Shown here piece after piece: positions 5,682 to 32,719 of a stretch of DNA of 37,943 nucleotides. Source of the DNA: Bacteroidota bacterium. Its GTDB lineage: Bacteria > Bacteroidota > Bacteroidia > Flavobacteriales_E > Vicingaceae. The position numbers were made by a program, and so were the translations under genes. The DNA lies in assembly GCA_016183805.1 (NCBI GenBank), contig JACPDX010000061.1, forward strand, positions 1-37,943, given 5' to 3'. The notes below the pieces were generated by a model, which worked only from the letters and a program-made list of their open reading frames with translations, was not told where the DNA came from and made no database searches. The first letter of the stretch is position 1. Each line of letters opens with the position of its first letter.

Positions 5682-6611
5682 ATGAAATCTCGAACAATAC
5701 TTATAACTGGTGGAGCCGGATTTATTGGCTCTCATTTAGTTCGATTGATGGTGAATAAATATCCAAACTACAAAATAATTAATTTGGATAAATTGACTTA
5801 TGCTGGTAACCTTGCAAACCTTACGGATATTGAAAATGCTCCGAATTATGAGTTTGTTAAAGGTGATATCGTTGATGCTGAATTTGTTCATGCTTTGTTT
5901 GATAAATACCAGTTCGATTCAGTCATTCATTTGGCTGCCGAATCGCATGTGGATAGATCTATCGCCACATTAGGAAATGAAGGAATGTTTGAAGAAACAA
6001 CACCTTACGACCCACGAAGCCCTTATTCGGCTTCTAAGGCAAGTTCCGACCACTTGGTTAGGGCTTATTACCACACTTTTGGGTTACCGATGGTTATTTC
6101 AAATTGCTCAAATAATTATGGTTCACATCAGTTTCCTGAAAAATTGATTCCTTTGTTTATTCATAATATAAAAAACAAGAAACCTTTACCGGTTTACGGC
6201 AAAGGCGAAAACATCAGAGATTGGTTGTGGGTAGAAGACCATGCTAGAGCTATTGATGTTATCTTTCACAAAGCAAAAGTAGGCGAAACTTACAACATTG
6301 GTGGACACAACGAATGGAAAAACATCGATTTGATAAAAGTGATTTGTAAAGTAATGGATAAAAAATTGGGAAGAACTGAAGGTGAGTCTGAAAAACTAAT
6401 CACTTATGTTACCGATAGAGCAGGACACGATTTACGGTACGCCATTGATTCAACAAAATTACAACATGATTTAGGCTGGACTCCATCTTTACAATTTGAA
6501 GAAGGTATTGAAAAAACCATAGATTGGTATCTGAATAACGAAGAATGGTTGAACAATGTAACCTCAGGGGCTTATCAACATTATTACGAAAAACAATACG
6601 AAAAGCGTTAA
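5682..6611 (+). CDS. rmlB: RmlB-like dTDP-glucose 4,6-dehydratase with an internal in-frame deletion
   Basis: An SDR protein of 309 residues; the family is usually about 345-350. The N-terminal half is normal (GGAGFIGSHLVRL, DKLTYAGNLANL, HLAAESHVDRSI at residues 83-94). The C-terminal half is also normal (PYDPRSPYSASKASSDHL with Tyr115 and Lys119 of YxxxK, NCSNNYGSHQFPEKLIPLF, YNIGGHNEWKN, YVTDRAGHDLRYAID). Between them the sequence jumps from DRSIAT to LGNEGMFEETTP around base 5965. Roughly 40-50 residues are missing, including the STDEVYG strand that carries the catalytic Thr-Asp-Glu of RmlB. The frame is intact and no stop is present. Dehydration activity is therefore doubtful. It may be a decaying gene, an assembly collapse or a protein with altered function. 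No rmlA, rmlC or rmlD is nearby. Confidence 0.88.
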   Translation: MKSRTILITGGAGFIGSHLVRLMVNKYPNYKIINLDKLTYAGNLANLTDIENAPNYEFVKGDIVDAEFVHALFDKYQFDSVIHLAAESHVDRSIATLGNEGMFEETTPYDPRSPYSASKASSDHLVRAYYHTFGLPMVISNCSNNYGSHQFPEKLIPLFIHNIKNKKPLPVYGKGENIRDWLWVEDHARAIDVIFHKAKVGETYNIGGHNEWKNIDLIKVICKVMDKKLGRTEGESEKLITYVTDRAGHDLRYAIDSTKLQHDLGWTPSLQFEEGIEKTIDWYLNNEEWLNNVTSGAYQHYYEKQYEKR

Positions 6612-8425: not shown

Positions 8426-10972
8426 TTAAAAATCAATTTTTCCTTTTGCTCTAATTGCCAATCCTTTTACGCCAAACAAAGAGCCAACATCTTGGTTATC
8501 TAAATAGGTGACACGCTGCATTAAGTCTATTCTGAATATTTTAAAAATATTTGAAATACCAATACTTGCTTCAACATAAGGAATACCATCTTTAAATTGA
8601 TAAGTAATAGATTCATTTTTTTCGTTTACAGGAAACAAGAACACATCTTTTTGAACATCAGGACCATAAAGTAATTTTAACGATGCAATTTCCCTAAGTT
8701 TAAGATGTTTTAATAAAGGAATTCGATTTAAAATAACACCATTAAAGCTGTGCGTAATTTTTAAGCTGGCATACTCGTCGCTCATGAATTCCATAAAATT
8801 CATTAGGTTAAATGAAGTTTCTTGTAAAAAAAATGATTGATTGGCTTGTGGCAAATTTAAAAGAGGAAAAGGTACTTTGCCAAATATTTTTCCTGTTTCT
8901 AACTCAACATCCGAATAACCCAGTAAACCTAAATAAAAACGTTTAAAAACATTTGCAGATAACCTAGAATAGTTTATTTCTCCATTAATAAACCCATTAA
9001 TACCTTGTGTAAATCGTAATTGAAATACAGGATACTTATTTGGGATAGGCATTCTGAAATTTTTACCCTGATAAAATTGTTCATTTGGTGCAAAACGTAA
9101 ATTAACACTAAAATTATCGGTTTTGATGTTGTTAAAATTTTGCTTTAGTAGAGTATCACTACTTACAAATTCTAAAATACCAAGAGGTCGCTGAAGTTTG
9201 TTTTCATAAATTAAATGGTAAGAAAAACCGCTTGAAGATTCTTTAATATAATCTAATTTATAAGAATCAAAGAAAAGCATTCGTTTAGAGTTTCCTCTTC
9301 TAAAAGATAGTAAAAAATTATCGTCGTTTAAAAACTGTAAATCTTGCCCTGGAAAATTAGTTTCATGTTGGTACGAAGCCGTTATTTTATGTTTTGGATT
9401 GGTTAAAAAGTTTTTATTAAACGAATAGGTATAACCTCCAAAATATTTATATTCCTTATCATCAAAACCATAGGCAACATAGGTATCAAAAATCATATTT
9501 TCAATAAATTGAGGTGTAGTTCTAAACCCTCCTCTCAATCTAAAGCCTTCTACTTCATTAAAACTATAAAAAGTGTTTATAGGACCTATTTCAATTTTTC
9601 CGATACTATGCCAACCGGTAATTAATAAAAATGCAACATCCATAAAGCGTTTGTATGCTTTAATGTGTTGAATGCTATCAATCATGGTATAAACACCTTT
9701 CTCATTTTTTGTTAAAGTGTCAGGTCGGGCAGTATTCCAGAATTCTTCATTTTGATGAGAATTATCTTCTACTTTAATTAATTTTTCAATCGGATTATAA
9801 ATACTATCGGGTTGCTCGTTATTAAAATTAAAATTGTTGTAAAAAACGGTTCTATTTCCAAAAAAACCCCGCCCTTTTTTTGTGATATTGTAATCGATAA
9901 TAAGTTTATCTTTACTCAACATCCATATACTATCATGGTATTGTGTAAATTCTTGTTCCAAACTTAAATCTTTAACAAAATTTACATTAATTTGTTTTGG
10001 AACACTCATACTAACTTTAGCAATATTAAAGGAGGAATCATTTAAAATATATAGATTACCTGTAAACGCATAGTCGGCTTTGTTTCTTGGCGTGAAGGCT
10101 AAATTGATACAACTTTTACCATTAACTTCGGTAGTATCAATAATAAAATATTTGTAAATTGTTGGTCCCAAAATGGAAATAGGACTGGTAAATTCGTGAG
10201 CCAATAAATAAATAGAGTTATCATAAATATCAACATCCTGATAAAGTTTATCCATCACGAATGATAAACCATCTTCATCAATATATCCATCAAATCCTGT
10301 TTGTCTAGTACCGGTACGATATTCTTTGTCGGTTTTTGGTTTTTTTCTAAAATATACTTTGCTTGCAGTTTCTCTTAAATAAATGGGTAAGAATGGTTTT
10401 CCGTTAATTTCAGAAGTATCAATATTATCAATAACGACCTGAAAATGTTTTTTTAACCACCCTTGATTTAAGAAATCCTCGGTGATGTTGTTTAAATCAA
10501 TTTCTATTTTTTCGTACTTGTTGTATTCATAAAACTCCATCGATTCTTTTCGGTTTTTATCTTTTCTTTCGATAACTTCTTTTATTAAATCGACAGCCGG
10601 ATTAGATTTGTTTTTATATTTTGTTTTTTCACCAACAATAGTAACCTCTTGCATGGTAATACTGGTTTCTTGCAGCGAAAAATTCAGCGTTTGGGTTTTT
10701 CCTTTTTGAACCTTCAAAGTATCGACTTTATATCCAACAAATGAAGCTAACAATTTTGATGTTGCCCATTGGGTTTCAATATAATAATTACCATCAAAGT
10801 CGGTGGTAGCACCAATATTTGCTCCTATAAAAGTAACATTAACAAAAGGCATGGGTTGTTTTGATTTTGCATCAATAACTTTACCTTTAATTTTTGTTAA
10901 TTCCTGAGCGTTAGTTGTTAATGAAAAAACAACCCATAAAAAAAATAGTACAAATTTTAAAAAGTTGTTCAT
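8426..10972 (-). CDS. DUF5686 outer-membrane protein with carboxypeptidase-regulatory-like N-terminal domain
   Basis: An 848-residue secreted protein. A signal peptide (MNNFLKFVLFFLWVVFSLTTNAQ) is followed by a CarboxypepD_reg-like beta-sandwich at about residues 28-110 (GKVIDAKSKQPMPFVNVTF, TDFDGNYYIET, ASFVGYKVDTL). The DUF5686 region covers most of the rest, with FYEYNKYEKIEIDLNN near its beginning, and the C-terminal part is rich in alternating beta-strand patterns suggesting a barrel. The architecture is common in Bacteroidota outer membranes but the function is unknown. Unlike SusC proteins there is no clear TonB-dependent plug. A promoter-like TATCTTTG lies at 11011-11018 on the coding strand, about 38 bases upstream of the ATG. 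Confidence 0.9.
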   Translation of the reverse strand: MNNFLKFVLFFLWVVFSLTTNAQELTKIKGKVIDAKSKQPMPFVNVTFIGANIGATTDFDGNYYIETQWATSKLLASFVGYKVDTLKVQKGKTQTLNFSLQETSITMQEVTIVGEKTKYKNKSNPAVDLIKEVIERKDKNRKESMEFYEYNKYEKIEIDLNNITEDFLNQGWLKKHFQVVIDNIDTSEINGKPFLPIYLRETASKVYFRKKPKTDKEYRTGTRQTGFDGYIDEDGLSFVMDKLYQDVDIYDNSIYLLAHEFTSPISILGPTIYKYFIIDTTEVNGKSCINLAFTPRNKADYAFTGNLYILNDSSFNIAKVSMSVPKQINVNFVKDLSLEQEFTQYHDSIWMLSKDKLIIDYNITKKGRGFFGNRTVFYNNFNFNNEQPDSIYNPIEKLIKVEDNSHQNEEFWNTARPDTLTKNEKGVYTMIDSIQHIKAYKRFMDVAFLLITGWHSIGKIEIGPINTFYSFNEVEGFRLRGGFRTTPQFIENMIFDTYVAYGFDDKEYKYFGGYTYSFNKNFLTNPKHKITASYQHETNFPGQDLQFLNDDNFLLSFRRGNSKRMLFFDSYKLDYIKESSSGFSYHLIYENKLQRPLGILEFVSSDTLLKQNFNNIKTDNFSVNLRFAPNEQFYQGKNFRMPIPNKYPVFQLRFTQGINGFINGEINYSRLSANVFKRFYLGLLGYSDVELETGKIFGKVPFPLLNLPQANQSFFLQETSFNLMNFMEFMSDEYASLKITHSFNGVILNRIPLLKHLKLREIASLKLLYGPDVQKDVFLFPVNEKNESITYQFKDGIPYVEASIGISNIFKIFRIDLMQRVTYLDNQDVGSLFGVKGLAIRAKGKIDF

Positions 10973-11169
10973 TAATTGTTTTCGGTGTACATTAGTTTTA
11001 TGAAAGGAGCCAAAGATAATTAAATCTACTTAAATATACCGCTACCATAAGAGTTTTCGGAAAATAGTAGACATTCTAGTTGTGGCATAACTCATACTAA
11101 CCATTACCGAGTACTTGGTGCTACTATAGTTTGAGTATAAAATACTCTAAATTAACGTGTGAAAATGTA
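10973..11169. other. Intergenic region between gldD and the DUF5686 gene
   Basis: About 200 bases with no open reading frame. It holds the DUF5686 promoter-like box near its left end and two palindromes: GAGTAT-AAA-ATACTC at 11133-11147, and the near-palindrome ACCGAGTACTTGGT at 11106-11119. The first lies 22 bases after the gldD stop on the coding strand and could act as a weak 3' end signal, but no U-tract follows. Confidence 0.4.
11011..11018 (-). promoter_or_regulatory. -7 box (TATCTTTG) of the DUF5686 gene
   Basis: The coding strand reads TATCTTTG, a full match to the Bacteroidota -7 consensus TAnnTTTG, placed 38 bases ahead of the ATG. No TTG was found at the usual distance upstream, so the call rests on the -7 box and its position. 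Confidence 0.5.
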
Positions 11170-11742
11170 TTATTTTTTCCACTCAAAAGTAGAAAATAAA
11201 TGTTCAATATCTTTTTTTACAAAGTCTAAAACAGGCTGAATAGAATCTTGGTTTGGAACAGTGTTAAAGTACAACGACGCTCTTAAAAAATGGTGAACAC
11301 TATCGGTTAAGTGAAACTGATACTCGGATGCGGCATCACCTTTAATATCGTAAATTAATCCGTAAACATTTTTTTCAGGGTTATTGATTACAATTTGTTC
11401 AATATCGGTTGCTTTTACCGAATGTTTAAAAGCTAATGTTCTAGAATCTTCTAAATAATTTTGAATATCATTGTTTAAAGGTTTATAACTAAAATATAAG
11501 CTGGCTTGTAGCGTATAGAAATCAAGATTAAAAAAACATAAATTGGGGTTGTTTGGGTCTAGTTTAATTTCAGTATAAATAGGTTTTTCGAAAATAAAAG
11601 GGCAATCAATTTCAACTTTTTCATATTTTTTTTCAGGTAAATCAATTCTGAAATAACCTTTTGGTTTAGGAGTGTACGATTCTCCTCCACAAGAGAATAA
11701 AATGATTAAAAATAGTAGAATTGATATTTTTTTAGGATTCAT
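11170..11742 (-). CDS. gldD: Gliding-motility lipoprotein GldD
   Basis: A 190-residue lipoprotein. A short signal peptide ends in the lipobox LFSC (Cys18), so the mature protein is lipid-anchored in the periplasm or outer membrane. The conserved GldD opening PKPKGYFRIDLPEKKYE follows directly, and the rest (DCPFIFEKP, NLCFFNLDFYTLQASLYFSYKPL, DIKGDAASEYQFHLTDS) fits the family. GldD is one of the lipoproteins required for Flavobacterium gliding and the linked type IX secretion system. It follows gldE, ssb and mutY on the same strand, the usual order in this phylum. The 39-base gap from gldE contains a perfect 20-bp palindrome. Confidence 0.95.
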   Translation of the reverse strand: MNPKKISILLFLIILFSCGGESYTPKPKGYFRIDLPEKKYEKVEIDCPFIFEKPIYTEIKLDPNNPNLCFFNLDFYTLQASLYFSYKPLNNDIQNYLEDSRTLAFKHSVKATDIEQIVINNPEKNVYGLIYDIKGDAASEYQFHLTDSVHHFLRASLYFNTVPNQDSIQPVLDFVKKDIEHLFSTFEWKK

Positions 11743-30137: not shown

Positions 30138-31430
30138 ATGAACAAAGACCAAGAAATTTTCGATTTAATTCAAGATGAGTACACTAGACAAAAAGAAGGT
30201 GTTGAACTAATAGCTTCTGAAAATTATGTTAGCGACAATGTATTAAAAGCCATGGGTAGCGTTTTAACCAATAAATATGCTGAAGGACTACCTTTTAAGC
30301 GTTATTATGGCGGTTGCGAAGTTGTTGATGTTATTGAGCAAATTGCTATTGATAGGGCTAAAGAATTATTTAATGCAGCTTGGGTAAATGTTCAGCCACA
30401 TTCTGGAGCTCAAGCAAATGCAGCGGTAATGTTGGGTGTTTTACAAGTTGGAGATAAAATTTTAGGTTTCGATTTATCTCATGGCGGACATTTAACACAT
30501 GGCTCACCGGTAAATTTTTCTGGAAAATTGTACAAAACCAGTTTTTATGGAGTTAATAAAGAAACCGGTAGGGTTGATTACGACGCTATGGAAAAAACTG
30601 CCATATCAGAACAACCAAAATTAATTATTGCAGGAGCATCTGCTTATAGCAGAGATTGGGATTACAAACGTATGCGGGCAATCGCTGATAAAGTGGGTGC
30701 ATTACTGTTAGCAGATATTTCTCACCCGGCAGGCTTAATAGCAAGAGGTTTGTTAAACGACCCCATGCCACATTGCCATATTGTAACCACTACCACTCAT
30801 AAAACTTTACGAGGACCAAGAGGTGGAATGATAATGATGGGTAAAGATTTTGAAAATCCATGGGGATTAAAAACTCCTAAAGGGGAAATTAAAATGATGT
30901 CGGCAATTTTAGATGGAGCTGTTTTTCCTGGAACTCAAGGTGGGCCTTTAGAGCATGTTATTGCTGGTAAAGCAGTAGCATTTAAAGAAGCCCTTTCTGA
31001 TGAATACATGGATTACTGTGTGCAGTTGATGAGAAATGCTAAAGTAATGGCAGAAGAATTAACCAAAAGAGGTTACGGAATAATTTCAGGAGACACTGAT
31101 AATCACTGTATGTTAATCGATTTGCGTTCAAAAAATATTACGGGTAAAGAAGCTGAAAATGTATTGGTTAAGGCTGATATTACGGTAAATAAAAACATGG
31201 TTCCGTTTGATGATAAATCTCCGTTTGTAACTTCTGGAATAAGAGTTGGAACAGCTGCAATTACTACAAGAGGTGTAAAAGAAGCTGAAATAGTTAAAAT
31301 TGTTGAGTTGTTAGATAGAGTAATTACCAATAGAAACAACGAAACCATTATTGAAGAAGTAAGAGATGAAGTAAACGAATTGATGGAGAAATACCCATTG
31401 TTCAATTTTGAAAATAAAGTAATTGCATAA
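30138..31430 (+). CDS. glyA: Serine hydroxymethyltransferase
   Basis: A 430-residue PLP enzyme that interconverts serine and glycine while loading one-carbon units on tetrahydrofolate. Signatures include [70 protein letters not shown] and the PLP-lysine segment [14 protein letters not shown] (Lys222). [21 protein letters not shown] is near the C-terminus. The length is normal. The gene has its own promoter and follows rnpB. The 32-base gap to fahA is a TAAACT/CATAA word tract. Confidence 0.97.
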
Positions 31431-31462
31431 ACACCTAAACTCATAACCTCATAAACTTTAGA

Positions 31463-32719
31463 ATGATAGAAGCCAACAACCCTAACTTAAAAAGCTGGAT
31501 TAACGTTCCTCAAAACTCAGATTTTTCTATTCAGAACATTCCGTTTGGAGTGGCTAAAACAAAAAATGGAGTACTGGTGGTTACTCGTATTGGCGATACG
31601 GTTATTAATATTCATCAATTGGCTTTAAATCAATTGGTTTCTTTCGATGCTTCGTTGTTTAAATCATCTTATTTAAATGATTTTATGTTGTTGGGTAAAC
31701 AAGCCACGCGTGAGTTGAGAAATCAACTTTCGTTATTGTTTAGAGATGCCAATACAACGGCTAAAAACAATCCAAAAGTACAAGCTGCATTGTTGAGTTT
31801 GAATGAAGTTGAAATGCAACTGCCAATAAACATTGGCGATTATACCGATTTTTATTCGAGCGAACAACATGCGTTTAACGTAGGTTGTTTGTTTAGAGAT
31901 CCAAAAAATGCACTGTTACCTAACTGGAAATACATTCCTGTTGGATATCATGGGCGTTCAAGTTCTATTTTGCCTTCGGGTGTAGATTTTCATCGACCAA
32001 AAGGGCAGAAAAAGCCAAACCCTGATGAAGCTCCCGTTTTTGGCAACTGTAATTTGTTGGATTTTGAATTGGAAACAGCATTTTTTACTTATCAAGGTAA
32101 ACCACTTGGTGACTCAATAACAACAGCCGAAGCAGATGATTATATTTTTGGAATGGCGTTGTTAAACGATTGGAGTGCAAGAGATATCCAAGCTTGGGAA
32201 TATGTTCCGCTCGGACCATTTTTAGCGAAAAACTTTGCTTCACACATTTCTTGTTGGATAGTTACTTTAGATGCCTTAGAACCCTTTAGAACTGAAGGAC
32301 CTATTCAAGATCCAAAAGTATTTCCATACCTGGAATATCAAGGAAACAAACATGTAGATATTAATTTAGAAGTAGCCATTCAACCAACAGGAAGTGGTGA
32401 AGTGGTGGTTAGTAAATCGAATTATAAATACATGTATTGGAACATGAACCAGCAATTGGCTCACCACACCGTTAATGGTTGTAATATTAGAGTGGGCGAC
32501 TGCATGGGTTCAGGAACCATTAGTGGACTTAATGAAGGTGAATTTGGCTCCATGTTGGAAATAACTTGGAAAGGAACAAAACCAGTTAAAATGCTTGATG
32601 GCACAGAACGCAAGTTTATTGCAGATAACGATACTGTAATTATTCGAGGCTATGCCGAAAAAAATGGTGTGAGAGTTGGTTTTGGTGAAGTTTCGGCAAA
32701 GGTATTGGCAGCAAAATAA
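31463..32719 (+). CDS. fahA: Fumarylacetoacetase
   Basis: A 418-residue FAH-family hydrolase that cleaves fumarylacetoacetate to fumarate and acetoacetate, the last step of tyrosine degradation. The N-terminal SH3-like part (QNIPFGVAKTKNGVLVVTRIGD) is followed by the catalytic domain with DYTDFYSSEQHAFNVG, PVGYHGRSSSILPSG, LDFELETAFFT, LLNDWSARDIQAWEYVPLGPF and GDCMGSGTISG. The metal ligands sit in DYTDFYSS, ELE and NDWSARD. Other tyrosine-catabolic genes are not in the window. The TAA abuts the opposing tsaD stop with no space. Confidence 0.96.
   Translation: MIEANNPNLKSWINVPQNSDFSIQNIPFGVAKTKNGVLVVTRIGDTVINIHQLALNQLVSFDASLFKSSYLNDFMLLGKQATRELRNQLSLLFRDANTTAKNNPKVQAALLSLNEVEMQLPINIGDYTDFYSSEQHAFNVGCLFRDPKNALLPNWKYIPVGYHGRSSSILPSGVDFHRPKGQKKPNPDEAPVFGNCNLLDFELETAFFTYQGKPLGDSITTAEADDYIFGMALLNDWSARDIQAWEYVPLGPFLAKNFASHISCWIVTLDALEPFRTEGPIQDPKVFPYLEYQGNKHVDINLEVAIQPTGSGEVVVSKSNYKYMYWNMNQQLAHHTVNGCNIRVGDCMGSGTISGLNEGEFGSMLEITWKGTKPVKMLDGTERKFIADNDTVIIRGYAEKNGVRVGFGEVSAKVLAAK

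Follow-up and report, generated by a model that had tools for sequence, protein, structure and literature searches.

The window, by which we mean the whole stretch of 37,943 nucleotides that we analysed, contains a gene for a dTDP-glucose 4,6-dehydratase (RmlB) that has been assembled without the segment carrying its catalytic acid/base residues, and we conclude that this gap, though present in the sequence, is most likely not in the organism. It is very probably an assembly error rather than biology, a reading favoured by nine losses, that of rmlB included, in conserved genes of the same draft, six of which shift the reading frame and one of which falls in the only hisS that we found. The organism's own gene would then probably be a full member of the RmlB family.

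The gene has the following features, all on the plus strand:

5682 to 6611, plus strand: rmlB reading frame as assembled, 309 amino acids, without an internal segment of at least 42 codons (translation and TIGR01181)
5709 to 5729, plus strand: NAD-binding glycine motif GGAGFIG, intact (residues 10-16 of the translation)
5966 to 5969, plus strand: junction at which 126-192 bases of the relatives are absent (DNA alignments to L009, L010 and L011)
6024 to 6038, plus strand: YSASK, the YxxxK pair Y115/K119, intact (translation and alignment with PDB 8du1)

RmlB (TIGR01181; PDB 8du1, 1g1a and 1bxk) is the closest known system to this reading frame, which has both the glycine motif and the YxxxK pair of that family. 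The translation scores 407.3 bits against TIGR01181, the model for dTDP-glucose 4,6-dehydratase (curated cut-off 365.1), in two stretches. Absent from it are the [ST]DE acid/base residues that precede YxxxK in the RmlB signature, [ST]DExnYx3K, as given in Table 1 of PMC8987622. In PDB 8du1, the best PDB relative, STDEVYG occupies residues 149-155 (STDE 149-152); the two matched stretches skip its residues 102-148, and the assembled protein is without the STDEVYG segment. The lost piece would presumably also hold a core strand and a helix of the extended SDR enzymes. As in the four aligned relatives, the gene follows one ending in MTYWSL. The initial annotation had described an open RmlB-like frame that lacks STDEVYG but retains YxxxK, with AESHVDRSI at residues 86-94 and EETTPYDPRSPYSASK after residue 103; our translation agrees throughout, EETTPYDPRSPYSASK starting at residue 104.

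What is absent is the stretch between SIA, which ends at residue 95, and LGNEG, which begins at residue 97, with the join placed at positions 5966-5968. The gap amounts to 42 codons (126 nt) in comparison with G006 and G001, and to 141, 147 and 192 nt in comparison with L009, L010 and L011, respectively, which are longer in this loop; every one of these sizes is a multiple of three. Judged from the sequence of L009-L011, the join has no bases in common with either end of the relatives' extra sequence, which, as far as those relatives show, speaks against a repeat-mediated deletion. In the same loop, before STDEVYG, the three relatives carry in-frame repeat-like inserts that differ in kind: CCTCCAA units, AACTCGAA-type units and a GC-rich palindromic tract. 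Cores resembling the palindromic tract occur three times in a 1.1-Mb sample of the genome under study.

Alignment with related RmlB genes, a check that the initial annotation had proposed, revealed the segment with STDEVYG in all 29 aligned relative loci (L009-L037) and its absence here. STDE is also found in each of the 80 named loci among the matches listed in a GTDB search; 79 fit the pattern [ST][TS]DE[VI]Y[GA], and the remaining one reads STDEVFG. At E <= 1e-60 a match was obtained in 55 of the 60 genomes searched. Of 46 genomes of the order 43 have a match, the genome under study being counted in both cases, and among the 46 a contiguous match over residues 1-309 occurs in that genome alone. 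The other matches in the order lie in open frames of 338-409 amino acids, except for one of 171 at a contig start, which is not judgeable. On these comparisons, the gap is not chance variation.

Across the 309 codons in common, dN/dS is 0.051, 0.044 and 0.036 against the nearest relatives L009, L010 and L011, and it ranges from 0.041 to 0.063 among those three. By these estimates strong purifying selection acts on what remains of the gene, as in normal RmlB. Four residues depart from positions that are invariant in 10 other aligned sequences, one of them being the junction residue; each of those 10 sequences has between 0 and 7 comparable departures. Because dN/dS is not raised, pseudogene decay was rejected, and with so low a ratio neither a loss nor a change of role long ago is to be expected. 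Retention for another role was among the three readings offered by the initial annotation; the shortened RmlB might, for instance, act as a scaffold or as a regulatory subunit and have no dehydratase activity. Its nucleotide-binding and YxxxK motifs are indeed intact. However, the [ST]DE of the tabulated signature (PMC8987622, Table 1) falls within the lost piece, the form is shared by no relative that we checked, and the rates of change are those of normal RmlB, so that another role strikes us as extremely improbable.

Searches elsewhere in the genome did not recover the missing segment: the best DNA match covered 27 bases at 85% identity, and at the protein level there was only a weak match on C72 (38%, E 0.28). 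The initial annotation had also proposed a search for a full-length rmlB elsewhere; none was found in the genome, which is 95.9% complete. These results and the open frame would be compatible with a true, recent in-frame deletion that inactivated the gene in the population, the rest having not yet decayed, and purifying selection on the remaining codons would suit a very recent loss. On the other hand, a living cell could not truly carry all nine comparable losses, one of which hits its only hisS, and the compared relatives show no such losses. We consider a true deletion very unlikely. Of the three readings first offered, nothing that we found favours recent true loss, and selection and the lack of any relative with this form go against another role; assembly collapse, taken as assembly error in general, is the one supported, by the other unmarked losses and by hisS.

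Those losses came from a comparison of the open reading frames of G006, G001 and G002 with a 1.10-Mb sample of the genome under study (the window and about 1.06 Mb more), a convenience sample consisting of contigs from earlier searches and the starts of some others. In this final comparison, 408 query frames had a good match. In 247 distinct stretches (256,417 bases) we counted nine conserved genes with a clear loss of 46-182 nt that the assembly does not mark. The reverse comparison, in a 1.54-Mb sample from three related genomes, produced five rows, none of which was kept as a loss, in 246 stretches (257,524 bases); comparing the relatives with each other (131 and 132 queries) produced three rows, and again none was kept. 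Fisher's P for 9/247 against 0/246 is 0.0036, linker and antisense rows having first been removed by eye. The nine losses are:

rmlB: in frame, 126 nt
asnB-like gene: in frame, 90 nt (30 residues with RDRYGIKPL)
PadR gene: in frame, 129 nt (43 residues)
recA (L163): frame-shifting, 46 nt
hisS (L165): frame-shifting, 61 nt
dnaE (L239): frame-shifting, 61 nt
CHU_0125/PorE-like gene: frame-shifting, 121 nt
unnamed gene in L238: frame-shifting, 182 nt
PorG-like gene: frame-shifting, 113 nt

Gene names are taken from the relatives' proteins, the PorE-like and PorG-like genes lying below curated cut-offs. Three losses in frame and six out of frame is the ratio expected without selection. The asnB-like loss had surfaced in a first comparison (74 reciprocal pairs), and a larger one, before the final comparison, added the in-frame loss in PadR and the frame-shifting losses in recA and hisS. 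DNA alignment gave different sizes in L238 (207 rather than 182 nt) and in dnaE (93 rather than 61 nt), and these two losses are less certain. An in-frame loss of 34 residues in L151 was graded probable and stands outside the nine.

All rows were sorted by eye. The forward comparison had 18: 11 represent the nine losses (rmlB and the asnB-like gene appear twice each), one is L151, and six were dropped, namely a shift of a single base in L198, gaps taken for variable linkers (L203 and L252), and three rows in the window at 386-98, 137-1560 and 3555-2994, judged to be antisense or gene-start matches. Of the five reverse rows dropped, one was a gap of 18 residues with dissimilar edges in the G006 hisS, two were variable-protein gaps in L258 and two were small shifts in frames judged antisense. 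Among the rows between relatives, two had extra bases and one was antisense. Extrapolated from nine per 256 kb, with an assumed coding share of 90% and from a non-random sample, unmarked short losses within genes seem to number about a hundred in this assembly, which is yet rated 95.9% complete and 0.4% contaminated. For single-gene oddities of this draft, an enzyme without its catalytic motif for example, comparison with relatives should come before any proposal of function.

A loss of about 61 bases divides the only hisS found (L165 7186-8591; G000:C78 about 10186-11591) between two frames. Its profile matches comprise two main pieces, which lie in different frames and both score under the family cut-off, and three others that are weak (at most 34.8 bits), whereas hisS exceeds the cut-off in all 14 control genomes. 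The cell needs this gene, and if the loss were real, charging of histidine tRNA would not be expected. In the only recA found (L163 10560-11509; G000:C76 about 30560-31509), a 46-base loss shifts the frame near the C-terminus, at model position 283 of 321; the gene nonetheless scores above its family cut-off (512.6 versus 325.3 bits). The dnaE frame shift also lies near the C-terminus. That losses of 46-190 bases, including those in hisS, recA, dnaE and rmlB, are real in the cell and somehow made good is scarcely credible. Our confidence in an assembly error rests on hisS, on the ratio of frames and on the reverse comparison; counting against it is that rmlB stays in frame, a one-in-three chance.

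An assembly error could have arisen as follows. The organism most likely carries an ordinary full-length RmlB, converting dTDP-glucose to its 4-keto-6-deoxy form for surface polysaccharide. About 126-190 bases inside the gene would have been lost in drafting, probably where scaffolds were joined or a gap was wrongly closed, and the resulting junction, which is not marked, would be in frame by chance. Missing pieces elsewhere would likewise have been dropped in joins or gap closures, and the reads would contain the rmlB segment. The sample of the genome under study has nine N runs of 2-114 nt, with one contig set aside (L249, G000:C6; 2,391 bases, N throughout). These short runs are probably assembly gaps and suggest a scaffolded draft with estimated gap sizes; the unmarked losses fall in a similar size range. 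Counting against this account, N runs persist in the sample, so that Ns were not all stripped. Three N runs (2, 113 and 160 nt) also occur in the sample from the relatives, yet no silent losses do, implying that N runs alone do not predict losses.

For seven of the nine losses DNA alignment gave the same size again, and the junctions of these seven overlap by 0-2 bases. An overlap-free junction is not made by a de Bruijn graph alone, and a subsequent step has to be invoked. This bears on technical causes other than scaffold joins, such as graph collapse of repeats or strain variants. The repeat-like inserts at the rmlB loop in L009-L011 would be a plausible break point for short-read assembly and speak for such a collapse, but a longer overlap would be expected from it than the 0-2 bases seen; within the assembly-error reading we regard a cause of this kind as possible, though rather unlikely. 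The sequence AGAGA stands directly to the right of three junctions (recA, L163 11432; hisS, L165 7935; PorG-like gene, L162 19332), perhaps by chance.

Faults of the kind proposed for rmlB have a precedent. Chen et al. (2020; PMC7111523) state that public databases receive incomplete or incorrect genes when local assembly errors and scaffolding gaps are left as they are, and they count 13 local errors within a single genome of 1.13 Mb. As in the metagenome drafts treated there, faults at unsupported places of a scaffolded draft would here yield incomplete or wrong genes. The errors in that account were located by read mapping, in genomes from metagenomes, whereas ours were located by comparison with relatives, in a draft for which a metagenome origin is not indicated.

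Given an assembly error, the gene is most likely an ordinary RmlB, and the cluster around it one for surface polysaccharide. By Pfam, its neighbours include two genes of the UDP-glucose/GDP-mannose dehydrogenase family, two of the epimerase family, a hexapeptide transferase, a GFO/IDH/MocA oxidoreductase and CpsB/CapC. The initial annotation had remarked that no rmlA, rmlC or rmlD gene is nearby, and accordingly none is among the families of the nine genes scanned around rmlB. Elsewhere in the genome, rmlA on C56 and rmlC on C76 both exceed their model cut-offs, and the best RmlD match, an RmlD-like gene on C25, falls just under its own (217.8 versus 224.05 bits). Directly after rmlA on C56 is an SDR gene (L158 11905-12810) whose glycine motif and remainder are in different frames, the part between them being missing; this further loss, seen without any relative, is outside the nine.
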